This document shows, piece after piece, positions 4,694 to 32,991 of a stretch of DNA of 37,004 nucleotides (positions are counted from its first letter, which is position 1; the number at the start of each line of letters is the position of its first letter). This stretch comes from Candidatus Onthousia faecigallinarum (lineage in GTDB: Bacteria > Bacillota_I > Bacilli_A > RF39 > UBA660). A program made the position numbers and the translations under genes. The notes under the pieces are model-generated. The model was not told where the DNA came from, did not search any database, and was given only the letters and a program-made list of their open reading frames with translations. The stretch is from positions 1-37,004 of the forward strand of contig DVKE01000029.1 in NCBI GenBank assembly GCA_018716225.1, in the 5' to 3' direction.

Positions 4694-6040
4694 TTATCTC
4701 TCAAAGTCATCTTTTTCTTTGTTTAAATCTAAATCTTCAATGTCATCATTATCTAAAACATTGTCTTCATACATATCATTAACAACATCAATATATTTAT
4801 CATCTTTATCATACCAACTATGAAGTTTATTATGTAAGAAAGATATTAGTTTTTCAAACTTCTCTTTCCAATATTCAAGAGTGTTTTTTAAATCATAAAT
4901 TTTAGATTTTAAAAATGAAATTTCATTGTCCTTTTCTTTAATCGCATCATTTAAAGTCTTAACTCTTAAATTAAGTGCCTCATTATTTTCAGTAAGAGTT
5001 TTAATTTTATTATTATTGTTTTTTAATTGTTCATGAGCATTAACTAAAGTATTGGATAGCGTTTGGATCTTATCATATTCTTTACTTGTATTATTAACTT
5101 GTTCGATAAAGTCGATAAAAGAATCCTTATCCTCTTTTGATAAAATATAATTATCTTTATTTAATTTAGAATTTTTTAATTTATCAATTTTATATTTTAT
5201 ATCTTTAGAGTCTTGTTTTAACTCTAAAGATTTTTTGTTTGCTTGTTTTAAATTTTCGGTATTCTTTTCAATTTGTTTTTTCATTTCAATATAGTTATCC
5301 ATATCAGATACATGAATATCTCTATTTCTACCTTTTTGTTTTTGTTTAAGGGTAGAATCTAAACTATATACTTGATTAAATTCTTCAATACATAAAGTTC
5401 TCATTTTATCTTGTAATCTAATTAATGATTCTTTAGTAAATACATCGGATTTACCAACTTGTTTTTCCATACCGTTCTTATTTTTATATTTAATTGGAAC
5501 ACCGACAATATGTAAATGTGGACTTGTCTCATCATAATGAATTATAGCACTGGCTACTTTAAAGTTAGGAACAAGCATTTCTAAATCATCAACTTGTTTT
5601 TGATAAACTTCAGACATTTTCTTCTTGAAGTTTTTATCTTTAGTGTCCCAATATTCTTTATCTCCAAGTTCAAGAATAATTTCACAAGCAAGATCTTTTT
5701 TCTCATTATTGGATACATTATCAAAATAATTTTCTATCATTCTACTAGGTCTAGTTTGTTTAGAATTATATTCTAATCTTGCTTCTTCAAATTCTTTTAA
5801 ATATAGTTTTTTAACATCATCTAGTGGAGAAGAAGTTCCTCTTACTATTTCTATTAGTTCTTGGTTATCATCATATTTTCTATAATTATGTTTATCTACT
5901 TTTGATAATTGTCTTACATTTTGAATAGCATTATTAGGTAAAGATGTTGTTCCACTTAAATTGTTTTTACCATTTTGTTTAGATATATTTTTTCTATTTT
6001 TATCACTACCTAAATGTAATGAATAAGCAAGTTCTGACAT
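4694..6040 (-). CDS. MobV-family relaxase (Pre/Mob plasmid recombination/mobilization protein)
   Basis: 448 aa; relaxase motif AIIHYDETSPHLHIVGVP (HxDExxPHxH), coiled-coil C-terminus. Confidence 0.9.
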   Translation of the reverse strand: MSELAYSLHLGSDKNRKNISKQNGKNNLSGTTSLPNNAIQNVRQLSKVDKHNYRKYDDNQELIEIVRGTSSPLDDVKKLYLKEFEEARLEYNSKQTRPSRMIENYFDNVSNNEKKDLACEIILELGDKEYWDTKDKNFKKKMSEVYQKQVDDLEMLVPNFKVASAIIHYDETSPHLHIVGVPIKYKNKNGMEKQVGKSDVFTKESLIRLQDKMRTLCIEEFNQVYSLDSTLKQKQKGRNRDIHVSDMDNYIEMKKQIEKNTENLKQANKKSLELKQDSKDIKYKIDKLKNSKLNKDNYILSKEDKDSFIDFIEQVNNTSKEYDKIQTLSNTLVNAHEQLKNNNNKIKTLTENNEALNLRVKTLNDAIKEKDNEISFLKSKIYDLKNTLEYWKEKFEKLISFLHNKLHSWYDKDDKYIDVVNDMYEDNVLDNDDIEDLDLNKEKDDFER

Positions 6041-6061
6041 AGGTTTCCTCCTTTCTAGAAG

Positions 6062-6212
6062 TGACCACTCAAATGGTCATTTTGGTTATCCAAAATTTCT
6101 AACCCCCTAGGAATTTTGTACGCTAAGCATACAAAATATCCAGTGGGCTAAGGTTTAACACCTTAGAAACCGTTTACTTTATTTCACAATAACCAAAACT
6201 TCGTAATGGTTA
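6062..6212. promoter_or_regulatory. Putative oriT: cluster of inverted repeats upstream of mobV
   Basis: Hairpins TGACCA/TGGTCA (6062-6079), ATTTTGG/CCAAAAT (6079-6096), ATTTTGTACGC/GCATACAAAAT (6113-6137), CTAAGGT/ACCTTAG (6148-6166), TAACCA/TGGTTA (6190-6212). Confidence 0.6.
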
Positions 6213-6286
6213 AAGTTCATAAGTATTAATTTTTAAATTGCTATCGCCACTTTCATTTACTTCGTAAACAAAACGTGCCACGCATT

Positions 6287-8140
6287 TTAAAAATCTTCTT
6301 CGGTAACATTATCTGGTATTGTTTCAAATACATCTCTAATGTTTACCTTTATATCATTTGGGTTATTCTTTGTAGTAAGCATTCCCATAGATAACCAATT
6401 CTTATCTCCATTATTATCTTTTTGTAATGGAAATGCTCTTATAGGGACTTCATTTCTTTGAAGTGGTCCTATATCTAATTTTTCAGTTTCTTTATAATAA
6501 GTACCTTTGTATAAATTAACTTCATAATATTCGCTTAATCTATATAAGTGTTGCATTACATCTTTAATAGGTAAGTATTCACTATATCTTATATTTGTAT
6601 CAACGCATACACCATTAAAATCATAAGTAAGTGGTCTTTTTCTATCAATATAACCTTTTGTATATAATTCATTGAAATCATTATAGAATGTACTTCTAAA
6701 ATTAATTTGTTTAACGACTAATTTTCCATTTTTAGTTTCTAATTCAACATCATCAATATATCTCATAATTATATCTGCTTTATCATCTCGATCTAATAAG
6801 TCCCAATTATCATTAAAAGCATAATAAGATATTGGTAATTTAACTTTATTGATAAAGTCCATCTCTCTTTTAAGTAATATATCTTCAGTAGTGAAGTTCA
6901 ATTGTTCTGCTTGTGAATTTTCTAACAATTTAGAATTAATATCTTTAATCTGATTTTCTATTAATTCCAATTCACTTTTATATTCTTCTTCTGTAAATAT
7001 TGAATCAATATATGCTTTTCTAATTCTATCTTTTTTGTTATTTAATGATTTTAATTCTTTTTCTAATTCTTGTTTTGGATTATCTACTTTTGATTTTAAT
7101 ACTGGTAAAAAGAACTCATTAACAACATTATCGTATTCCAATATATCAGCAAGTAGTGTTTTAATCTTTTCTTCAATCTTATCTTCTTTAATATTATTTT
7201 TACAATTTTCACATCTATAATAGAAATACCATTTATCATATTTAATTTTATGAGTAGCACCACCAGCAAGTATTCTTCCACATTTAGGACATCTTAATTT
7301 TTGTAAGAAAATATAAGTTTGAGTTCTCATATAATTCTTTTGATTTTTCTTCTTTTGTGCTTGACAGTTTTCCCATAGTTCTTTACTAACTAATGGTTCA
7401 ACAACATTTTCATAATATACAGGTTTATTTATTGTTTTACCAGATACATAATCTCCTTTATATAATTCATTAGATAATATTTTCAATATTCTTGTATCTT
7501 TCCAATTTGTTTTACCTTGTATTTTTTCTTTATTAAATATATTTGCAATAGTGCTATAAGAATTACCTTCAAAATATAAATTAAATATTCTGATAACTAT
7601 ATCTTTTGTAAGTGGATCAGGAACTAATTTTTTATCAATACGTTTAAATCCAATAGGACAAACTGCTGGAATATGACCTTGTTTAATTGCTCCTGCCATA
7701 CCGACTTTTGTTCTTTCACTTGTTCTTTCAATTTCATTTTGTGAAACTGACATCATTATTCTAGTTACCATTTTTCCGTTAGCTGTTGTTGTATTAATAT
7801 CATCATTAGCACATACTAAATCAAATCCATACTTTTCAGAGGTTTTAAGTAAGTTTTCCCAATCATATATACTTCTTGATAATCTATCTAACTTTAAAGC
7901 AATAACAGTGTTTATTTTACCATTTTTAGCGTCATCTATTAATCTATCAAACTCTGGTCTATGATTACCTGTTTTAGCACTTATTCCAGCATCTTGGTAA
8001 TAATCATATATCTTATATCCTTTAAATTTACAAAGTGCCTCTAATCTTTCTTTTTGTTCTGGTAAACTAAATCCTTCTTTGGCTTGATCTTCAGTTGATA
8101 CTCTTAAATACAAACCACATATTCTTTCTTTGTCTTTCAT
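6287..8140 (-). CDS. Large serine recombinase/integrase
   Basis: Resolvase domain LYLRVSTEDQAKEGFSLPEQKERL...LKLDRLSRS, recombinase domain, zinc-ribbon LRCPKCGRILAGG...YRCENC; ATG at 8140 preceded by AAAGGAG. Confidence 0.93.
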   Translation of the reverse strand: MKDKERICGLYLRVSTEDQAKEGFSLPEQKERLEALCKFKGYKIYDYYQDAGISAKTGNHRPEFDRLIDDAKNGKINTVIALKLDRLSRSIYDWENLLKTSEKYGFDLVCANDDINTTTANGKMVTRIMMSVSQNEIERTSERTKVGMAGAIKQGHIPAVCPIGFKRIDKKLVPDPLTKDIVIRIFNLYFEGNSYSTIANIFNKEKIQGKTNWKDTRILKILSNELYKGDYVSGKTINKPVYYENVVEPLVSKELWENCQAQKKKNQKNYMRTQTYIFLQKLRCPKCGRILAGGATHKIKYDKWYFYYRCENCKNNIKEDKIEEKIKTLLADILEYDNVVNEFFLPVLKSKVDNPKQELEKELKSLNNKKDRIRKAYIDSIFTEEEYKSELELIENQIKDINSKLLENSQAEQLNFTTEDILLKREMDFINKVKLPISYYAFNDNWDLLDRDDKADIIMRYIDDVELETKNGKLVVKQINFRSTFYNDFNELYTKGYIDRKRPLTYDFNGVCVDTNIRYSEYLPIKDVMQHLYRLSEYYEVNLYKGTYYKETEKLDIGPLQRNEVPIRAFPLQKDNNGDKNWLSMGMLTTKNNPNDIKVNIRDVFETIPDNVTEEDF

Positions 8141-8160
8141 ATACTTCAACTCCTTTTACT

Positions 8161-19357: not shown

Positions 19358-21154
19358 TTAGGATTTATTTTCTTTTGTTTCTTGCTTTTGTTGCATTGCT
19401 TTTACTAAGACTTTCTCAGGCTCTTTGACTGTTCCTAAATAATTTATCATCTCATCAAGCTTATCCAATTGGTCATTTGGATAGATCCCTTGATAATCAT
19501 CCATCACTTCACTAACCGCAAAGTCAAAATCCCTTTGTTCTTGCTCTTTTCTTACTCGTCTTTCTAATCTTTCTTTTAAAGCGGTCGTTTTCTCTATAAA
19601 CTCTACAGCATTTTCTAATGGTAAAACACAGCCATAAATAAGTTTAAAAGCATACGCTGCCTTTTTTTCATCTTCGATGGTAGAAAGATATTCTACAATC
19701 TCCTGCGCATCGCTTCGACAAAGGAGAGGGGTCTCAGTCAAAGATTGCATCGTATATAAGGACTGAAAATTTTCCTCTGTCTTGGAAATTGTTTGCATAT
19801 ACTTCTTTCTTTCTTCTTCATCTAAAACCAAAGCATTGCTACTCTCAAGAAAAGTTCTAGCATAGAAAGCTTGTTGTCCATCTTTCGCAGTCGCTATGAT
19901 CCTAGTATATTCACTTCCTTTTTTATAGGTTGTTTCATTCGCAAATTTACGAGCCTCATCCGCTTGGGCTGCTCCTTTTGCTGCTACAATAGCTTGTAGA
20001 TAAGAAAGACCCTCGGTAAAAGATGTAGCAGTTATAATTCCACCGGTTGCCGCTTGATAACCCGCTTTGGCTTGATATTCTTCTTGAGCATCTCTTACCG
20101 CTTTAATCCAAAGAGGAGCATCTTCTCTTTTCATAATCGCTTTGGAACGAGTCATAAGAGCAGCAAAATAATTTTGAAAATCTTCTTTACTTTCAGCCAC
20201 CATATTTTCGATCAAAAGAACATCTTTTCGATTACAAAAAATAGAATTGATCGCTGCTTCTTTGATATCTTCGGCTTTTGTTTTTACAGGAGCTTCTATA
20301 ATTGGTTTTAATATTTCTTTTAAATCTTCTCTTTCCATCACCCGATTGATTTTTAAAGCCTCATAAGCTTCCCTTGCCGGACCGGTATCTTTCGCTAAGG
20401 CAAACATACGAATAAGGTCAACCGCATCCTCTCGATTTAATACTTTTTTCTTTTGAGCCACCATTCGAGTCAATTCTAGACTTCTTTCTTCTTTGGCTTG
20501 TAAGAAGGCTTTGACAATGTCAAAAAAGCGAGGATCTTGACATATTTGGGGTATACGTAGCAATTGAATGAGGTAATTTTCTTGCTGCCCATTTTCTAAT
20601 GATGAAGCAAGCTTCACCGCTTGAAGAGGATCTACCGTAGAAGAACTTACCATCACTTGATTATAACCTTGAACAAGTTCTTTGACAAAATCCCGTTGAA
20701 AACTTTCTGGCAAATGCGTCACATATCTTACATATTCAATTGCATCTTCTTTTTCTAACACTTTTTTCGCTTCTCCTACCGTCAAACCATCAAAAGCTTG
20801 TTCTTCGCTTGGCGCCAAAGCAATTTCCTTGACAAAATCAAGTTTATTTTCTTTTTTGGCCACTTTTCTTTCCATTAAGCTAGCAAAAAGAGCATTCCCA
20901 GCCTTTACTTTTTCATCTTTTATCATATCTAACACTTGAGCTTGATAGTCTTTCTTTGCCTGGGTAAATTTAGAAGAAGAATATAAAACGATAAGAGCAA
21001 GCGATTTTTCACGACTCTCTAAGATCGTCTTAAATACCTCTTCTTTTTGATTCAATAAAACATCAAGATTAATGAGCCTAGTGTCAAAATTTTTCTTCTT
21101 TAATTCATATAGACTATCCTTTACAAATTTTAATATTTCAATCTTATTTCCCAT
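19358..21154 (-). CDS. Alpha-solenoid repeat protein (598 aa), paralog of upstream gene
   Basis: Repeated units of about 35-40 aa of type vLxREDAxxxIxxiAxAkxxxQAxxAxxxL; N-terminus alignable with 21169..23421 product. Confidence 0.7.
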   Translation of the reverse strand: MGNKIEILKFVKDSLYELKKKNFDTRLINLDVLLNQKEEVFKTILESREKSLALIVLYSSSKFTQAKKDYQAQVLDMIKDEKVKAGNALFASLMERKVAKKENKLDFVKEIALAPSEEQAFDGLTVGEAKKVLEKEDAIEYVRYVTHLPESFQRDFVKELVQGYNQVMVSSSTVDPLQAVKLASSLENGQQENYLIQLLRIPQICQDPRFFDIVKAFLQAKEERSLELTRMVAQKKKVLNREDAVDLIRMFALAKDTGPAREAYEALKINRVMEREDLKEILKPIIEAPVKTKAEDIKEAAINSIFCNRKDVLLIENMVAESKEDFQNYFAALMTRSKAIMKREDAPLWIKAVRDAQEEYQAKAGYQAATGGIITATSFTEGLSYLQAIVAAKGAAQADEARKFANETTYKKGSEYTRIIATAKDGQQAFYARTFLESSNALVLDEEERKKYMQTISKTEENFQSLYTMQSLTETPLLCRSDAQEIVEYLSTIEDEKKAAYAFKLIYGCVLPLENAVEFIEKTTALKERLERRVRKEQEQRDFDFAVSEVMDDYQGIYPNDQLDKLDEMINYLGTVKEPEKVLVKAMQQKQETKENKS

Positions 21155-21168
21155 TTCTTTCTCTCCTT

Positions 21169-23421
21169 CTAGTTTGTTTCTTTGACTATTTTTCTTCTTT
21201 CAAAGCTTTTTTGTAACACTTTGCCTTGTTTTTCTTCGGGTATTTGTTGCAATAAATTCGTCAATTGTTCTAGGTCATAAATATCCACATTGGTAAGCGG
21301 TATTTTTGATATTTCATCAAGAAAAATGGCATCCTCTTGCTTTTGATTTTCTTGCTTTTGTAAGGCAAGACGAGCTTGTTCTTCTTTTACCCAACCATTG
21401 ACTTCTGCTAAAGTGATTCGTTCTTTGCTATCGGCTTTCTTAATTTCTTCACAAACTTTTTTTACTGCCTCTGGCTCTTCCACGAAAGAAAGAGTTGTCA
21501 TAATTTCTTTTCGATCCTCTGGTTCTAATTGATAACAATGGCGAATCGCTACATCGACGCCTTCTACTTGATAATCTTTTTCGGCTTTCTGATACAGCGG
21601 TAGAAAAGAAAGGAGATCGGGATAAGCAAGAGCCAAAGCTTTTTGATCCAAAACAAGATTATTGGCTGCAAATAGTTGATCCTTTCCTTTTAAAGAAGCA
21701 GCCGTCTCAATCAAAGTTAAAGAATCTTCTCTTTCTAATTCCAATACATTAGTAGCAGTAGCAAGATTACAAGCTACTCTTAGTTGAAGAGGTTCATCCA
21801 AAGCCTCTAAAATATCCATAAAATCAAAGACATAATCTTTCCCTCTAGCTAAAAACTCATCATTTTTTAAAGTAGCTTCAAAGGCGCCTTGCAATTTCCA
21901 AAATTCATTTTTCTCCCCAAGCTGAGAAATTTTTCTAGCTAATGATAAAACTGGTCGTTTCCCATACTTTAATATCTTTTTTAGAGCAAGGATGCGTGTA
22001 ATACTTAAAGCACTACTACTTTCGGATTGAGCTATAATATTCATTAAGGTACTACTATAATCTCTTATTCTTTCCCAACGATACTCTTTTTCTAATGATT
22101 CTAGCGTATTTGTATATAGTCCTAATCCTATCTCAGGAGAAGGATCTACCAGATCCAAAATGGCTTTCGCTTGCCACTCTCCTTTGGAAGAAGCCACCGC
22201 TTGAATCAAAGACAATCGATCAGGACGTTTCAATACTCTTTCACATTGGGCCATTCTACCGGTAACCTCTGTTATAATGCTTTCATCTTTCTCCTTCTCT
22301 CTTTTAATCGAGGTCATTATTTGCGTAATAGGAAGAATCTCTTCTTTCGCATACCGAAGGGTTCTGGGATTACTTATCGTAGCAGCGACAATATTGGGAA
22401 AATTACTGTTTTTAAGCATTTTAAGGACAGGAATGACAATTTCTTTTCCTAAGGAAAGAAAATTAGACTGCACAGCAGTTTCCATCGCCCACAAGACTTG
22501 AGGCTTTGGCTCGTTGGCAAAAGTTTCTACAAGAGCGAAATAATAATCTTTTTCTAGTCTTTGGATCCTAGGATTTCGTGCTATATCACTAGCAAACGAT
22601 AAAAAATAAGGCATTACTCCATCTTCTTTTATTTGATCGAGAATATCAATAAGCGGAAAAACATACCCTCTTTCCACAATCACTTGATTCGTCATCACGT
22701 GTTCGAAAGTCTTTGCTTTGTCAAACTTATCGATACTGCCAATTCTTTTAAGACAGGTTAAGATGCCATCCTGCGGGAGAGCAAGAGCATAAGGATTGAT
22801 CACCACATCATAAGCAAATTGAGGAAAGAAAGCTTTTGACACTTCTTCTATGATCGCATCCCGTCTTTTTTTCTCTTGAGCAAGAATATTCGGATGATTC
22901 ATAGTAGCATAAAATACATCTAAATTTCCTCTACTGTCCTCCTTCTTAGCAAGTGTTTGAATATAATCATAGGCATCTGGCAAGTCTAAAACCGCATCAT
23001 TGCAAGCTAAAAGAGTTGCAAGCTTCGCTTGATGAACCTCTCTTGTTGCAATCAATTCAAGGAACGAAAAAGCATCTTCTCTTTTTAAAAGATTCGGGTT
23101 TGTTGCCAATAAACTAGCATAAAACAAAGATAAGGAATCAATATCTTTCTCCTCAAAAATACTTTCCACTTTCGCTTTTAACGCAGAATCAGCTTGCATA
23201 AAATCTCTTGAGGAGAAAAGAATTAATCTTGCATATTGCTGGTATTTATCAGTTTCCTCCTTTTCCTTTGAAGAACTATCTTCCATTATTTTGTTAAGAT
23301 CTTGTTGAAACAAAACCTCTAAATCCATTTGATAGGGAAGGTTTATTTTAGAATCTTTAAAGCTTTCTAACTCTTTCAAACAATCCTTTGCTAACTGTAA
23401 TACTTGTAATTCTAAATTCAT
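21169..23421 (-). CDS. Alpha-solenoid repeat protein (750 aa)
   Basis: Repeats such as LLKREDAFSFLELIATREVHQAKLATLLA and VLELEREDSLTLIETAASLKGKDQLFAANNLV; start MNLELQVLQ with AAAGGAG RBS. Confidence 0.7.
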   Translation of the reverse strand: MNLELQVLQLAKDCLKELESFKDSKINLPYQMDLEVLFQQDLNKIMEDSSSKEKEETDKYQQYARLILFSSRDFMQADSALKAKVESIFEEKDIDSLSLFYASLLATNPNLLKREDAFSFLELIATREVHQAKLATLLACNDAVLDLPDAYDYIQTLAKKEDSRGNLDVFYATMNHPNILAQEKKRRDAIIEEVSKAFFPQFAYDVVINPYALALPQDGILTCLKRIGSIDKFDKAKTFEHVMTNQVIVERGYVFPLIDILDQIKEDGVMPYFLSFASDIARNPRIQRLEKDYYFALVETFANEPKPQVLWAMETAVQSNFLSLGKEIVIPVLKMLKNSNFPNIVAATISNPRTLRYAKEEILPITQIMTSIKREKEKDESIITEVTGRMAQCERVLKRPDRLSLIQAVASSKGEWQAKAILDLVDPSPEIGLGLYTNTLESLEKEYRWERIRDYSSTLMNIIAQSESSSALSITRILALKKILKYGKRPVLSLARKISQLGEKNEFWKLQGAFEATLKNDEFLARGKDYVFDFMDILEALDEPLQLRVACNLATATNVLELEREDSLTLIETAASLKGKDQLFAANNLVLDQKALALAYPDLLSFLPLYQKAEKDYQVEGVDVAIRHCYQLEPEDRKEIMTTLSFVEEPEAVKKVCEEIKKADSKERITLAEVNGWVKEEQARLALQKQENQKQEDAIFLDEISKIPLTNVDIYDLEQLTNLLQQIPEEKQGKVLQKSFERRKIVKETN

Positions 23422-23559
23422 TTTAAACTCCTTTTTTTGATAGAAAAAAAGTAACACAGCGAAAGAAAATAAGTTGTCTTACTCTCTTCTTTTGGTTACT
23501 TTTTTGATTTCGATAGTACTAGAAAACGTTCTTTCATAATCTTTTCCTCCTGTTATTTT

Positions 23560-25171: not shown

Positions 25172-26578
25172 TCAAATAGAATTTAATTTTTTATAAGATT
25201 TTAATTCTTCCCCCTCTCTTTGATAGATCGCAATTTCTTGTCCCTTACAAAGAAAAACCACTTTATCGACTACCCCATAAGTATTTTTCATTGGATGACC
25301 ATTCAAAAGACGTTCTTGATCCTCTTTTTTAATTTCTGCTTCTTTTAAGGAAAGAGCTTCTCCTATCTTTAAAAGTGGAGTATCGACCGTAATCTCTTCC
25401 AAAGAATAACATTGATCTAAGGTGAAATTCCCTTGTTTGGTTCTCGTTAAGGCACTCATCGTAAACAAAGATTGGCAAGCTGTTCCTAAATCACGAATCA
25501 GACTTCGAATATAGGTCCCTTTCGATACAAGAGCTCGAAAACGAAAAGAAGATTCTTTTATCTCCAATAATTCTAGTTCATAAAGGATAACATGCTGCCT
25601 TGGTATTTCTACTTCTTTCCCTTCTCTTGCATATTGATAAAGTTTTTTCCCCTTTACTTTTTTAGCAGAATAAAGCGGTACTTCCTGATTATATTCTCTA
25701 GGAAAGATTCGAAACGCTTCTTTTAATTTCTCTTGATCAAGTAAGGAAGAACCTTCTTCTAAGACCTTCCCTTCGATATCTAAAGTATCTGTTCTTTTTC
25801 CTACTACTACTTCCGCAAGATACTCTTTGGTCGCAGACATCAACAGATCACTTACTTTCGTCGCTTGATTGACTGTTACTACTAAAACCCCAGTCGCAAG
25901 AGGATCGAGTGTTCCGGTATGTCCTACTTTTTTCGTATCAAAAACAGAAGAAATATGGTTTACCACTTCCCTTGAAGTAAGGCCTTGCGGTTTGTTGACA
26001 AGTAAAATTCCAGAACGATGATATTTTTGATCATATTCTTCGAGACAAAGATGTTCTTTTTCCATTCTTTGAGCCGTGCTCTTTCCCACATAGCGATAAT
26101 GCCAAGGTTCATAAGCATAACCCGTAAGCCGTTCTTTTTCTTTGGGATAACGTAAAATAAGACCACAAGAACTTAAATTTTTCTTTATTTCTTGCCAAAG
26201 AGGTTCCCTTTCCTTGGCCAATAGATCTTCATTTTCTAGCAGATCTTTCCCCTCTACTCTTAAAAACACATCAAAACAAAGCCCCGTATGATGCTCACTT
26301 TCTCCTGCTCTTGCCACATACTTCTCGACATAATCCAAACCATATTGCTCTTGAAATTCCTCTCTTATTTTTTGTTGTTCTTCAAACGTTCGATACCCAC
26401 TCGCCAAATCAATTTCAATTCTTTTTGAAGCTAGTCTTTCTTTTAATTCGAAATAAGCTTTTAAGGTTCTTTTCTCTAACAAAAGAGTCTGTCCCAAACA
26501 ATTAGTCACTTTTTTTAATTGATTTTGATCTATTTTGAGACAAGGATGATCTTTATTTACTAGAATCTTTTCGTTCAT
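25172..26578 (-). CDS. truB: Fusion: VanY-type D-Ala-D-Ala carboxypeptidase domain + tRNA pseudouridine55 synthase TruB
   Basis: N-half: ASGYRTFEEQQKI, ESEHHTGLCFDVFL, YEPWHYRYVG (VanY zinc motifs). C-half: GILLVNKPQGLTSREVVN, KVGHTGTLDPLATGVLVV, VSKGTYIRSLIRDLG (TruB). Confidence 0.9.
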   Translation of the reverse strand: MNEKILVNKDHPCLKIDQNQLKKVTNCLGQTLLLEKRTLKAYFELKERLASKRIEIDLASGYRTFEEQQKIREEFQEQYGLDYVEKYVARAGESEHHTGLCFDVFLRVEGKDLLENEDLLAKEREPLWQEIKKNLSSCGLILRYPKEKERLTGYAYEPWHYRYVGKSTAQRMEKEHLCLEEYDQKYHRSGILLVNKPQGLTSREVVNHISSVFDTKKVGHTGTLDPLATGVLVVTVNQATKVSDLLMSATKEYLAEVVVGKRTDTLDIEGKVLEEGSSLLDQEKLKEAFRIFPREYNQEVPLYSAKKVKGKKLYQYAREGKEVEIPRQHVILYELELLEIKESSFRFRALVSKGTYIRSLIRDLGTACQSLFTMSALTRTKQGNFTLDQCYSLEEITVDTPLLKIGEALSLKEAEIKKEDQERLLNGHPMKNTYGVVDKVVFLCKGQEIAIYQREGEELKSYKKLNSI

Positions 26579-26921
26579 TCTCTTCTTCCTTTACTTGACT
26601 TAGTATCTTATCCATATGTTCCCCATAAGCAATCGATTCATCATAAACAAATCGTAACTCTGGAGTATGTCTTATTTCAATTCTTTGACTAAGTTCTGTC
26701 CGAAGAAAACCTTTCGCTTTATTTAAAGCCTGTAAGGTAGAATCTTTCTTTTCAGGATCCAATACGGTAAAATAAACTTTACAATAACTAAGATCACTCG
26801 ATAAATCACACCCTGTAATGGTCACAAAATGAATGGCCTCATCTTTTACTTCGGTCATTAATATTTTACTTAACTCCTCTTGAATTGCATCATTATAACG
26901 CTCTATTTTGATATTTTCCAT
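26553..26921 (-). CDS. rbfA: 30S ribosome-binding factor A
   Basis: 122 aa; KIERYNDAIQEELSKIL...DLSYCKVYFTVL...LRTELSQRIEIRHTPELRFVYDESIAYGEHMDKIL. Confidence 0.93.
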   Translation of the reverse strand: MENIKIERYNDAIQEELSKILMTEVKDEAIHFVTITGCDLSSDLSYCKVYFTVLDPEKKDSTLQALNKAKGFLRTELSQRIEIRHTPELRFVYDESIAYGEHMDKILSQVKEEENERKDSSK

Positions 26922-26958: not shown

Positions 26959-26987
26959 ATTATACTATTGATTCCGAAAGCTGTCTA
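26959..26987 (-). promoter_or_regulatory. Probable promoter for rbfA-vanY/truB operon
   Basis: Minus strand TAGACA (26987-26982) - 17 nt - TATAAT (26964-26959). Confidence 0.6.
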
Positions 26988-27004: not shown

Positions 27005-27033
27005 TTGCAAAATAGAAGCTTTTCTTTTATAAT
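27005..27033 (+). promoter_or_regulatory. Probable promoter for the giant repeat gene
   Basis: TTGCAA (27005-27010) - 17 nt - TATAAT (27028-27033), then GGGAGG RBS before ATG 27060. Confidence 0.65.
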
Positions 27034-27059
27034 ATTTTTTAAATGGGAGGTTTGGTTCA

Positions 27060-30000
27060 ATGACATCAAATAAAGAAATTGTAGAATTATTAAAAAAAGG
27101 AGATCCACAAAGAACAAAATTCTTTCAAGATATGCTAAAAAAGGAATTAAAAAATTCATTCTTAACCGAAGAGGAAAAAGACAAACTAATCAAAGAAACG
27201 TTAACGGAAGCGATGGATAGTTATCAAGATGAAAACACGATCTTTGCCTTTTACTTAAAAAGAATCTTAAAGCAAAAGGAAAAGGTAATACAAGAAAAAG
27301 AAACTTCTCTTGGTAATCAATTATTTTCAAAAGAAGAAATGCTTATTTTAAATTTATATCAAGACGTCACTTCTTATGGTTATTTAGACAATCATCAAAT
27401 TGCTGCCAAACTTCATCTTTCCCTTTACCGAGTTAAAAGTGTCGAAAAAAAACTAGCCCAACTTTTAAAAAGGAATCGAGAGGACATCCTTACACTTTTT
27501 CCTAATCTAAAAGAAAATTTAAAATTACGAGCTTCTTTACAAGAAAAACAAAAACAAAAATTAACCGAAGAAGAAATCAAACTCATCGCTTATTTCACGG
27601 GAGAAATCAATGATGTTTGCCTCGATTTGCCTGATCTTGCCAAAAGATTTTACTTAGAGGAAGAGCAAGTTAAGCAGAAGCTAGCTGTGGCCATCAAAAA
27701 ATTAGATCTTCCTAATAATCAGGAACAAATCAACAACCGCTACCCTTCTGCTTTAAAAATGTTGGAAGTGCGCAAAAAAATAATAGAAGAGCCTGCTACC
27801 CCTCGAAAAAAAGAAAAAAAAATAAAAAAGAAAAGTGTTTCGAAACCACCCCAAGAAAAATCATCTTTTTCTATAACAGACAAAGAGTTATTAAAGCAAT
27901 TACAACAACAAGAGGAAATTTTTTTGACCAAGGAAGAAGTTATCAAAAATTTACATATGCAAAGCTACAAAAGTTTTTTAGAACGCAAAGCAAGACTTTT
28001 TGATCAGCTCAAAACAAACCCTACGCTTTTTCAAGAAGCCCAAAAAATTTATCCCAATCTAAATCTTGGCAAGCCAGAATATATTTTAAAGGATTCCGAG
28101 CGGCTTTTACTAAGAGCTTTAAATAAGCAGCAGGAAGAAAATTTAAGTTTAGAAGAGATCGGACAGCAATTAAACTATACCAACAAAAACAACTTATCCG
28201 CTGCCATCAAAAGAGTCATTCAAAAAATAAATACATTCCCATTGTTAAAAAAACGAGCGTTTGCCTGCTTCCCTCATCTTCCTGCCCTTTTGGAAGCAAA
28301 ACAAGTTTCCATTTCTAACCAACCAAAACTCTCAAAAGAAGAACAAGAGCAACGAGACATTTTGTTTTTACAAACCTTAGAACGGCAATATACAGAATGT
28401 CTTCCTACCGAAGAGATGGCCGAACTTCTTTCTTACCCCACAAAAGTAGCTTTCCGCCAAAGAAAAAATGAACTACTAAGACGAATTCGTACCAATCCAA
28501 ATTGGAAGAAGAAAGCAGAACAGTTTTTTCCTCATTATCCCTTGGCTTTTTCAAAACAACAATTAACTTCTGCCCAAAGAAAGCTTCTTCGCCTATTAAA
28601 GGAACAGCAAGAAAATATGCTTCTTACCAATCAAGAGATCATGAAACAATTAAAGATCACAAGCAATGACTCTTTTCTGGCAAGTAAAAGAAAATTGTTT
28701 GCTTGTTTAAAAGAAAAAGAAGGACTAGAACAAGTAATCTCATTCTTTCCTAATGTTTCGTCCCTTTGGGAAGAAAAACCTCCTACCTTAACCCCTCAAG
28801 AAAGAAAGCTGTTAAAATTATTAAAAAGGCAACAAGAGGAATGGTTAACCACCCGTGAAGTCATTCAAGAAAGTGGTTATTCTTCTTCCGGCTTTTATAA
28901 GGCAAAGGCTCAATTACTCACAAAATTAAAAAAAGAAAATCTCCAAGAATTTCAAAAGCTAACCGAAACAATAGAGTCAAATGATCCTGCTTTCTCTTTT
29001 CATGATGGCGAAAAAATGATTCTTCGTCTTTTGAAGCAACAAATAAAAGATCCGAGTCTAACCGAACAACAAATAGAAATAGAATTAGCTAAAGTATTCC
29101 CCCTTCGTTTTAATTATCAAAAAAGAAAAAAGAAATTAATAGAAAAATTAAAAGAAAATGAAGCTTTACAAAGAAAAGTTCTAGCTTGGGAACCACAATT
29201 AGAGGAATTATGGATCAAATCAAAGGCAAAGGCGCCATTAGGGTTAACAGCCAATGACTTAAAAAGAATAAAGCTTTGTAAAAGGGAGCAAAAGGAACTT
29301 TTAACTGATCAGGAATTAGCTCAAGAAGAACAAGGACCTTTCAAAATCCGCAAAATAACCTTAAGAGAAAAAATATTACACCATCCCGAAGTCTTGGAAG
29401 AAGCCAAAAAAATCGAACCCAACATCTTAAATTATCTAAAACCTTTACCACTTCGTACTTCTTCTCGCCTTATCTTAAGAGCCTTAAAAGCGCAACAAGA
29501 AAACCCTACCCTTACGGATCAAGAGATGGCCCAAAAATTATCCTTTTCTACCCTTGAAGATTATCAAAAGAAAAAGAAGGCTTTATTGAAGCGGATCCAA
29601 CAAAACCAAGAATTAGTCACTTTATTAACAGACTTTTTACCAGATCCTAGTATCTTAGAAAACAAAAAAAGCTCTAAAACGTTAAGTGAAGCCGAAATTG
29701 CTTTATTAAAAATTTATCAAAAACAATAGCATGAATTTCTTACCAGTGAAGAAGCGATCAAAGAACTAGGAATTTCCTCTTGTATGTTCTATCAAGCAAA
29801 ACAAAAATTAACCAAAGATATCCAAGAACATCCAGAATTGATGAAAGAAGCAAAAAAAATATTTCCGAAATTCTCCGGTCATGGCGAAAAACAAATTACC
29901 AAACAAATGTGTCTATTGGTCCGTTCTTTAAAAAAACAACAAGAAAACTTCTTTCTACAAGATCGCCAAATTGCAGAAGATTTAGGCTATTCCAGTATAA

Positions 30001-30842
30001 GAAATTATTCGATTGCTAAAGCTCAATTTTTCGGACGAATTAAACAAAATCCTCCCCTTGAAAAAAGAGTATTTGAATTCTTAGATCGGGATCTTTTAAA
30101 AACTCACTTGTTAGACTCTGAACGCCAATTTTTACAAGTTCTCCAAGAATATGCTAACCTTGATGACGAACAACGGAGCAAAATCCTTCATTATTCTCAA
30201 ATAGAGCCTTACCAACATAAAAAGGCAAGACTAAAAAGAAAAATCAATTCCTCCCCAATTCTAGCAGAACGTTTTTCCCATCTTTTTGAACCTCCAAAGC
30301 AAGAAATCACTCCCCAAGAAATATCCCAACTACAACAAACTTATCAATTATCATTAGACGAAGAACAATATCAAAAGGTAGAAGAGAAAGAAGACTTAAA
30401 GAGAAAAGCTAAAAACAATCTTTCTTATATAATAAAAGAATGGCCTAGTTTTGAAGAAAATGTTGTTTTAAGAGAACAAATTCCATCTCAAGAAAAAATC
30501 GCTTTAAGCGAAGAAGAAATAAAAAATCTAAAGAAAGCTTGCCAAAGACAAGAAGAAAAGAAAGAACAAGGTAGCAAGTCTAATCTTGTACAAGGAATTC
30601 TTACTCTAGAATCCTCTATCTTTGGAGACTATGTCAAACAATGTACTTTCGAACAAAAAACGATGTTAGCTTTACGCTTTGGCTATTTTAATCAACAACC
30701 GATGGCCGTAAGTGACATTGCCGAAATCTTTCAAGTAGAAAAGGAAGAGGTTAGAAAATTAACAAAAGAATGCCTTCTTCATAGCAAAGAACTCTTACAA
30801 CAAGAAAAAGCCAAAAAAAAGATCAAAAAAGATAGTAGGTAA
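27060..30842 (+). pseudogene. Giant tandem HTH-like repeat protein with sigma region-4-like C-terminus; split by in-frame TAG at 29727-29729
   Basis: About 13 degenerate ~75 aa repeats (L..E..LL..L..QQE..LT..EI...L.YSS...F...K..LL..L..NP.L...A...FP.L); C-term MLALRFGYFNQQPMAVSDIAEIFQVEKEEVRKLTKECL. After TAG the same frame continues HEFLTSEEAIKELGISSCMFYQAKQKL... to TAA at 30842. Called pseudogene/interrupted; readthrough not excluded. Confidence 0.65.
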
Positions 30843-30865
30843 ATATTCTTACCTACTATCTTTTT
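30825..30865. terminator. Bidirectional terminator shared by infB and the giant repeat gene
   Basis: Perfect inverted repeat GATAGTAGGTAA (30831-30842) / TTACCTACTATC (30849-30860) flanked by A-run and T-run. Confidence 0.85.
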
Positions 30866-32991
30866 ACTTCGACCAATTCATAAACTTCAATCGTATCTTG
30901 TTCTTTATAATCTTGGAAATTTTCTAACGTTAGACCACAATCCATTCCTTTGGTAACTTCCTTTACTTGATCTTTTTCATGTTGCAAGCTTTTAATCGAA
31001 CCATTATAGACCACAATTCCATCGCGAATCACTCTTGCTTTGCTATTTAATTTTACCGTTCCAGAAGTGACATGGCAACCAGCAATCATACCAATCTTTG
31101 AAAATTTAAATAATTGTCTTACTTCTAGTTCCCCAATAACTTTTTCTTCATAGACTGGTTCTAGCATTCCTTTCATCGCTTGTTCCATCTCTTCTACTAA
31201 TTTATAAATAATATCATACGTTCTAATTTCTACATTGTGCTCTTTGGCAATCTCTTGTACTTTACTGTTCGCCCGAACATTAAAACCAATAATAATCGCA
31301 TTAGAAGCTTTTGCTAGGACAACATCACTTTCGGTAATACCACCGACTCCACCACGGATAACATTTACTTTGACCCCTTCTACATCAATCTTCTCAAGTG
31401 ACTTTTTAACCGCTTCTAAGGAACCATTGACATCCGTTTTTAAAACAACATTAATTTCTTTTAATCCTTCATGAATTTGTCCAAACAAATCTTCTAAGGT
31501 CATACCAGTACGATTGGTATCTTTTTCTTTCGCTCTTAAAGCTCTTTCTTCGGCAATACTCTTCGCTTGCTTTTCGGTTTCAAAAGCCATGAATTTATCC
31601 CCAGCCGATGGAAGCGCCGAAAGCCCTGTAATCTCTACCGGCATGGAAGGAGTCGCTTCCACAATATTTTGGCCTTGATCATTTTTTAAAGTTCGAACCT
31701 TGCCATAGGTAGTACCTACTACAAGCGGATCCCCTAAACGAAGTGTTCCATTTTGAATTAATAAAGTAACTACACTGCCAACATGCTTATCCATTTGACT
31801 TTCCAAAACTGCACCTGTCGCATAACGAGAAGGATTGGCCTTTAATTCTAACATCTCTGCTACTAATAAAATGTTTTCTAGAAGTTCAGGAACTCCCTCC
31901 CCAGTGATAGCAGAGATTCGATTGACAATCGTATCACCACCCCACTCTTCTGGCGTAAGTCCTGTTTCTACTAACTCGGATAAGACCTTATCAATATTGG
32001 CATCTGGTTTATCAATCTTATTGATCGCTACAATAATAGGAACACCGGCTGCCTTAGCATGATCAATTGCTTCCTTCGTTTGAGGCATCACTCCATCATC
32101 CGCTGCCACAATAATAATAACAATATCTGTAACCGAAGCGCCACGTGCCCTCATCTCCGTAAAAGCTGCATGACCAGGTGTATCAATAAACGTAATCATC
32201 TTTCCATTGCATTTTACTTGATAAGCACCAATCGCTTGGGTGATACCTCCCGCTTCACCACTCGCGATACTACTTTTTCTTAAATAATCTAAAAGAGTTG
32301 TTTTTCCATGATCGACATGACCCATAATCGTAACAACAGGGGGTCTTTCTTGCAAATCCTCTTCTTTTTCCTCAATCTCATAATTTTCAAAATTTGAAAT
32401 ATCAGCTGTTTCTTCTCGCTTTACCGTTTTATTATAATCCAAAGCCAAAATCTCTACATCTTCAAAACGCAAAGGTTGGTTTACCGTAGCCATAATACCT
32501 AAGCCCATTAACTTCTTAATGATTTCAGCAGTAGAAACATTTAACTCCCGTGCTAGATCTCCTACGGTCATAGAATCTTTATAAAGAAGAACGTTTTCAT
32601 CCTGCACTTTGGCATTACTCTGTAATTTTGCACGATGTTTATAAATCTTCTTTCGCTCTTCTCTAAAATTAGTTTTATCCGATCCTTTGTTGACTTTTCC
32701 TTTCGCTTTGCCCACTTTGGCCGGTTTTTCCATCGCCAAATGAGAATCATAAGCAATCTGTTCTGCTTTTTCTTCCAAAGCAAAATTTTTCTCTAACTCA
32801 TTTTCCTCTTCACTTTCCTTTACATAATCTTCTTCATCTTGTAAAGAATTGTCTAGTAAAATAATCTCATCATCGGATAATACCCGATCAAGATCACTAT
32901 AATCCATCGCAAGTCGATCCATATGTTTGATGATTTCTTCTACACTTCGATTGGTATCTTCTGCGTATTCTTTAATATTCATGCTCATCAC
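30856..32991 (-). CDS. infB: Translation initiation factor IF-2
   Basis: VVTIMGHVDHGKTTLLDYLR, TFIDTPGHAAFTEMRARGA, VAINKIDKPDAN; ends VEVKR-TAG. Confidence 0.96.
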   Translation of the reverse strand: MMSMNIKEYAEDTNRSVEEIIKHMDRLAMDYSDLDRVLSDDEIILLDNSLQDEEDYVKESEEENELEKNFALEEKAEQIAYDSHLAMEKPAKVGKAKGKVNKGSDKTNFREERKKIYKHRAKLQSNAKVQDENVLLYKDSMTVGDLARELNVSTAEIIKKLMGLGIMATVNQPLRFEDVEILALDYNKTVKREETADISNFENYEIEEKEEDLQERPPVVTIMGHVDHGKTTLLDYLRKSSIASGEAGGITQAIGAYQVKCNGKMITFIDTPGHAAFTEMRARGASVTDIVIIIVAADDGVMPQTKEAIDHAKAAGVPIIVAINKIDKPDANIDKVLSELVETGLTPEEWGGDTIVNRISAITGEGVPELLENILLVAEMLELKANPSRYATGAVLESQMDKHVGSVVTLLIQNGTLRLGDPLVVGTTYGKVRTLKNDQGQNIVEATPSMPVEITGLSALPSAGDKFMAFETEKQAKSIAEERALRAKEKDTNRTGMTLEDLFGQIHEGLKEINVVLKTDVNGSLEAVKKSLEKIDVEGVKVNVIRGGVGGITESDVVLAKASNAIIIGFNVRANSKVQEIAKEHNVEIRTYDIIYKLVEEMEQAMKGMLEPVYEEKVIGELEVRQLFKFSKIGMIAGCHVTSGTVKLNSKARVIRDGIVVYNGSIKSLQHEKDQVKEVTKGMDCGLTLENFQDYKEQDTIEVYELVEVKR

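Follow-up and report, generated by a model that had tools for sequence, protein, structure and literature searches.

Sigma factors are usually compact proteins with a single region 4. The protein described here has its top structural matches among the sigma-70 factors of groups 1–4 (SigA, SigE/F/G/K, ECF), and its C-terminal module shares their sigma-4 fold while its N-terminus fits part of their region 2. It differs in carrying 13 helix-turn-helix (HTH) units where those proteins have one sigma-4, in a degenerate region 2, in the absence of a clear r3.2 linker, and in scoring under every curated sigma cut-off. Regulators of the LuxR/GerE type provide a second point of reference, since their HTH profile fits the core repeats as well as the sigma-4 profile does; the protein lacks their receiver or ligand domains, and GerE domains are not known to occur other than singly. 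With TALE, BurrH and other tandem DNA-reading repeats it shares tandem units, unit duplication and variable exposed positions, by analogy only: a TALE repeat spans 33–35 aa, compared with a tri-helical HTH of ~64–75 aa here. SigO-RsoA of Bacillus subtilis, listed as a two-subunit sigma factor (PMC10141391), indicates that sigma parts can work when carried by separate chains, a precedent relevant to the split gene copy described below; unlike that gene, it has no repeat array. In open-access papers we found no giant sigma factors and no duplicated region 4, and no family in Pfam, NCBIfam, PHROGs or PADLOC covers the protein.

A repeat-rich frame between rbfA and infB

The window, the whole 37,004-nucleotide stretch of Candidatus Onthousia faecigallinarum DNA that was analyzed, contains a repeat-rich frame on the plus strand (27060–30842), flanked by two minus-strand anchors, rbfA (26553–26921, identified by translation) and infB (30856–32991). 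An earlier note on this DNA had described a single giant protein and had overlooked an in-frame TAG at 29727–29729. The frame comprises 1260 codons with this single internal stop: a first ORF of 889 aa (27060–29729), starting with the ATG at 27060, closes at the TAG (codon 890), and a second part in the same frame (29730–30842) holds 370 open codons, or 352 aa from its first ATG (29784), located 18 codons past the TAG. The stop falls within the ninth core repeat; it lies in the motif KQ*HEFLT, at a place that reads QQE in other repeats. Recoding of TAG as a sense codon is ruled out: the codon is an ordinary stop in the window, ending 6 of its 22 ORFs. For that reason the window copy would be either split, inactivated or mis-assembled.

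Upstream of the frame lie a promoter-like site, TTGCAA-17-TATAAT (27005–27033, plus strand; 10 of 12 consensus bases), and a ribosome-binding-type GGGAGG (27045–27050, plus strand). A second consensus match, TAGACA-17-TATAAT (26959–26987, minus strand), faces rbfA, such that the rbfA-side gap has promoter-like sites in both directions, on consensus matches only. Between the convergent ends of the repeat gene and infB, an 18-bp stem with A/T tracts on both sides (30826–30865) resembles a terminator. Given the two-way promoter-like sites and this stem, the repeat gene looks like its own transcription unit, separating infB from rbfA–truB. The proposal that the gene interrupts a translation operon is borne out by its position inside the usual infB–rbfA transcription unit; the proposal that it has its own promoter fits the upstream sites, but promoter-like sites across the region as a whole are not in excess of shuffles.

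Several other features of the window were recorded. A VanY-type D-Ala-D-Ala carboxypeptidase domain and, following it, a TruB pseudouridine synthase form a single fused ORF (25172–26578, minus strand), and the length of this fusion, 460–475 aa, is kept across the genus. On the same strand, a Mob_Pre-type relaxase adjoins a large serine recombinase (4694–8149), probably as part of an integrated mobilizable element, and two large ORFs of 598 and 762 aa (19358–21154 and 21169–23457) have no Pfam match.

Fold and kinship of the repeats and the two ends

A repeat HMM of 64 positions, seeded from the repeats of a relative and iterated, located 13 units of ~64 aa in the frame, two N-terminal and 11 in the core, with a mean core spacing of ~75 aa and starts at aa 90, 168, 273, 343, 431, 502, 577, 650, 729, 804, 875, 955 and 1019. 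In 70 reversed or shuffled proteins the same HMM gave three marginal matches (E<0.05; best E 0.024). Self-comparison in 40-aa windows reached a best score of 86, against maxima of 37–53 in ten shuffles, and the repeat consensus reads LTKKEIKILKLLNKQKNKPLSDEEIAKKLGYKNIKSYNKAKNKLFNKLKKNEELKEEVKKIYPN. The earlier count of about 13 repeats agrees with these results. All units lie on the plus strand. HTH unit 1 (aa 89–149; 27324–27506), which is sigma-4- and sigma-3-like, matches Pfam Sigma70_r4 at 4e-5 in addition to the HMM, and HTH unit 2 (aa 168–229; 27561–27746) was placed by the HMM and profile comparison. They are followed by a Lys-rich linker (aa 246–266; 27795–27857) of low AlphaFold confidence that is probably disordered. 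The HMM places core repeats 1 to 4 at 27876–28058, 28086–28277, 28350–28535 and 28563–28754, repeats 5 to 8 at 28788–28943, 29007–29195, 29244–29423 and 29469–29645, and repeats 9 (the one broken by the TAG) to 11 at 29682–29867, 29922–30080 and 30114–30287.

AlphaFold models predict helical units, each made of the three helices of an HTH plus one more (mean pLDDT 81 for residues 1–407, modeled with 21 sequences; 77 for the C-terminal 370 aa), with a packing between units that the models do not fix (pTM 0.34 and 0.42, respectively). Searching the PDB by Foldseek with residues 1–407, the best 50 matches were all sigma-70 factors or their complexes (probability 0.80–1.00, E no better than 0.002), and among the named top matches in a viral library most were phage sigma factors. 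In profile–profile comparisons HTH unit 1 matched sigma-4 at 96.6% and sigma-3 (r3) at 92.5%, HTH unit 2 matched sigma-4 at 94.1%, and the core repeats matched sigma-4 at 94.7% and GerE at 96.3%, with all unrelated controls below 8%; the window protein itself has no GerE match in Pfam, and its likeness to GerE is one of profile similarity, short of the family cut-off. The AlphaFold models and HTH profile matches rule out a coiled coil or plain helical repeat, in keeping with the earlier description of the repeats as HTH-like. We dropped a specific assignment of the core repeats to sigma-4, since GerE fits them equally. From their profiles, the repeats are best described as sigma-4/GerE-type HTHs, single units of which are not separable from the LuxR/GerE type, and the case for sigma descent consequently rests on the two ends and the domain order. 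Of the suggestion that a sigma factor expanded by repeats, the sigma-4 C-terminus and degenerate sigma-2 N-terminus stand, while the core units may or may not have a sigma-4 origin. The gene product has a pI of 9.3, and helix 3 of the HTH has a mean charge of +2.4, compared with −0.9 to +0.2 for the other helices.

The N-terminal domain (aa 1–84; 27060–27311, plus strand) is, by AlphaFold and profile comparison, a degenerate sigma region-2-like domain, as its earlier likening to region 2 had anticipated. Its alignment with sigma-2 scores 28.1 (P 4e-5) over ~30 columns only, with a maximum of 14.9 in 100 column shuffles, and is without the usual −10 aromatic residues; Pfam Sigma70_r2 gave no match. 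HTH unit 1 begins 9 residues past this domain.

The C-terminus contains a sigma region-4 module (30606–30794, plus strand), recognized by Pfam, NCBIfam, PDB profile, hhalign and superposition, which upholds the earlier reading of this end. Its predicted structure superimposes on domain 4 of Staphylococcus aureus sigmaA with a TM of 0.80 (rmsd 1.3 Å, 56 columns, probability 0.96). In the window protein the C-terminus scores 0.0038 with Pfam sigma-4 and 1.4e-6 with NCBIfam sigma families; among the members of the family, 10 of 25 have Pfam Sigma70_r4, with a best value of 3e-7. Searching the PDB with a profile built on the C-terminal region recovers sigmaA region 4 (E 0.02–0.05), and the module matches sigma-4 of the genus sigma factors at 97.3% in profile–profile comparison and the extra C-terminal modules of genuine same-genus sigma factors at 98.6% (hhalign, E 1e-15). 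On fold and sequence, then, the C-terminus is a sigma region 4 HTH.

Distribution and turnover among relatives

The gene is present in 25 of the 35 genomes of the genus Ca. Onthousia; the 10 genomes without a match rule out a genus-wide universal gene. In 24 of 24 Ca. Onthousia relatives it adjoins rbfA and/or infB on the opposite strand, a synteny that rules out a recent insertion in a single genome. Most relatives have an intact gene, which in L030 encodes 741 aa, and the number of units among them ranges from 4 to 18. In other genera of the family the gene also occurs beside infB, encoding 673 aa in one (L129) and 1601 aa with 18 units in another (L137). In G011, G023, G034 and genus g27 a copy of a second type neighbors a VanY-like gene; a second family copy in this setting occurs in several genera (L039, L043, L044, L130, L131). 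Where the gene is missing in G005, G026 and G029, infB is directly beside rbfA. Judged from gene order, the infB–rbfA junction is an insertion-tolerant slot. In a tree of infB, rbfA and truB, some branches of which are weakly supported, the window and G017 form a separate near-basal branch, a pattern compatible with early gain followed by several losses. Other gene-less relatives (L081, L083, L077, L080, L076) were seen to carry SbcD/SbcC, a phosphoesterase, a PD-(D/E)XK transposase or an alpha-CTD-type protein in the slot.

The repeat gene is under purifying selection in relatives, yet evolves fast, as indicated by pairwise dN/dS values that are mostly 0.27–0.54 and always below 1, compared with mostly 0.03–0.11 for infB. 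Between species, sequence conservation is about 25% for the repeat gene and about 77% for infB. In several pairs the dS of the repeat gene is well below that of the adjacent infB and rbfA, which suggests between-species recombination. Exposed helix-3 positions, presumed to face DNA, evolve faster than the remaining exposed ones (0.41 vs 0.31, permutation p 0.0012, with positions picked from the sigma-4 alignment and pairs that are not all independent); relaxed constraint could be the cause. The array grows and shrinks by whole repeats, with recent duplications of a 246-bp unit: the second copy in G018 contains a DNA array of 4.6 copies with this period and 93% matching, and G034 and G023 have an internal second C-module. 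A fresh tandem DNA array was not found in the window itself.

This bacterial family habitually attaches repeat arrays to its sigma proteins. Its members include genuine sigma factors enlarged to 789–1416 aa by added C-terminal modules, and in a sister-lineage sigma factor (L138:2118–6367) the order r1.2-r2-r3-r4 is followed by at least 12 helicase-associated (HA) domains. The extended sigma factors of the family (L065, L066, L070, L133, L138, L141) have the extra C-terminal module in common with the window protein, or likewise bear added C-terminal units. Unlike the window protein, they retain r2 and r4 in full, and many of them r1.2 and r3 as well; their units are either few or different in kind (e.g., HA domains). 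Giant genuine sigma-70 factors with added repeats were also noted in further sister-genus sequences (L132:4392–14663, L133, L139–L144); in L132 a neighboring 1864-aa protein has a different repeat, of the YKIFGEE...LYGENL type. Unusual regulation of sporulation has been predicted in related Bacilli orders (PMC10868615), and a tie to the present genus is speculative.

A model for the array and its rivals

The computational analysis establishes the architecture, the HTH folds, the sigma kinship of the ends, the conserved locus, purifying selection in relatives and unit duplication. We propose, giving the model about an even chance, that the protein is a DNA-binding array of sigma-70 descent, specific to this lineage, that connects RNA polymerase with extended DNA; its binding of DNA and polymerase and its regulatory role are inferred. 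An ancestral sigma factor would have lost the ordinary sigma layout, retaining a worn sigma-2-like N-terminus and a sigma-4 C-terminus, between which repeated unit duplication would have added tandem HTH units in variable number. Most probably the HTH array would then be set along an extended stretch of DNA with the sigma-type ends contacting RNA polymerase, and the protein would act at a small number of long sites, either as a sigma factor of an unconventional kind or as a sigma-like co-regulator. In the window genome itself the TAG would either inactivate the protein or cause it to be made in two pieces.

A nucleoid-associated or architectural protein, whose HTH array would cover or bridge DNA largely regardless of sequence and whose sigma-type ends would be relics that make no polymerase contact, would account for the many basic units (pI about 9), for a number of units that ranges freely between 4 and 18, and for the very low conservation beside infB. 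We consider it rather unlikely: it leaves the strong sigma signal of both ends unexplained, and a relic should decay, whereas the sigma-4 module at the C-terminus has stayed well conserved and is found in genuine sigma factors too. Because the family carries enlarged genuine sigma factors, we prefer the polymerase-linked array over a plain DNA coat. Still less probable, in our judgment quite doubtful, is an arms-race protein with diversifying recognition units, for instance one aimed at phages or mobile elements or one that is itself selfish, for which the infB–rbfA junction is a tolerated insertion site. The patchy presence of the gene, the other genes found in the slot of relatives that lack it, the fast change of helix 3, and the low dS, suggestive of between-species exchange, are what such a protein would predict; the stable chromosomal position across genera argues against it, as do the lack of a viral-contig relative and of any meaningful PHROGs match (one weak unknown only), which rule out a phage origin, and the lack of a PADLOC match to the window protein, which rules out a known defence system.

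Decay of the window copy as a pseudogene concerns that copy alone and would agree with any function that the family may have; we regard it as a serious possibility, slightly less probable than its opposite. The in-frame TAG, the likewise split version in G014 (L045) and the relatives without the gene all speak for it. Yet only one stop interrupts so long a frame, the repeat pattern is kept in both parts, the nearest relative (G017) has an unbroken frame across the equivalent region, and the TAG may instead be an assembly error of the metagenome-assembled genome.

What would be the relevance of a polymerase-linked array in this lineage? We speculate, as an unlikely extension of our model, that it is a modular DNA-reading protein: each sigma-4-like HTH would read a short DNA word, duplicated units would diversify into long addresses, and the sigma-type ends would bring RNA polymerase, yielding a re-addressable sigma factor. 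If true, this modular reader would be part of a broader radiation, within this Bacilli family, of giant sigma proteins that bear repeats. The picture of the sigma factor as a compact protein is challenged by a lineage whose genomes are reduced (~1.1 Mb) and which has repeatedly built giant sigma-derived proteins of up to 18 HTH units. This lineage offers a testable system for the way in which one HTH gives rise to tandem DNA-reading arrays, and possibly a scaffold on which to design programmable transcription factors.
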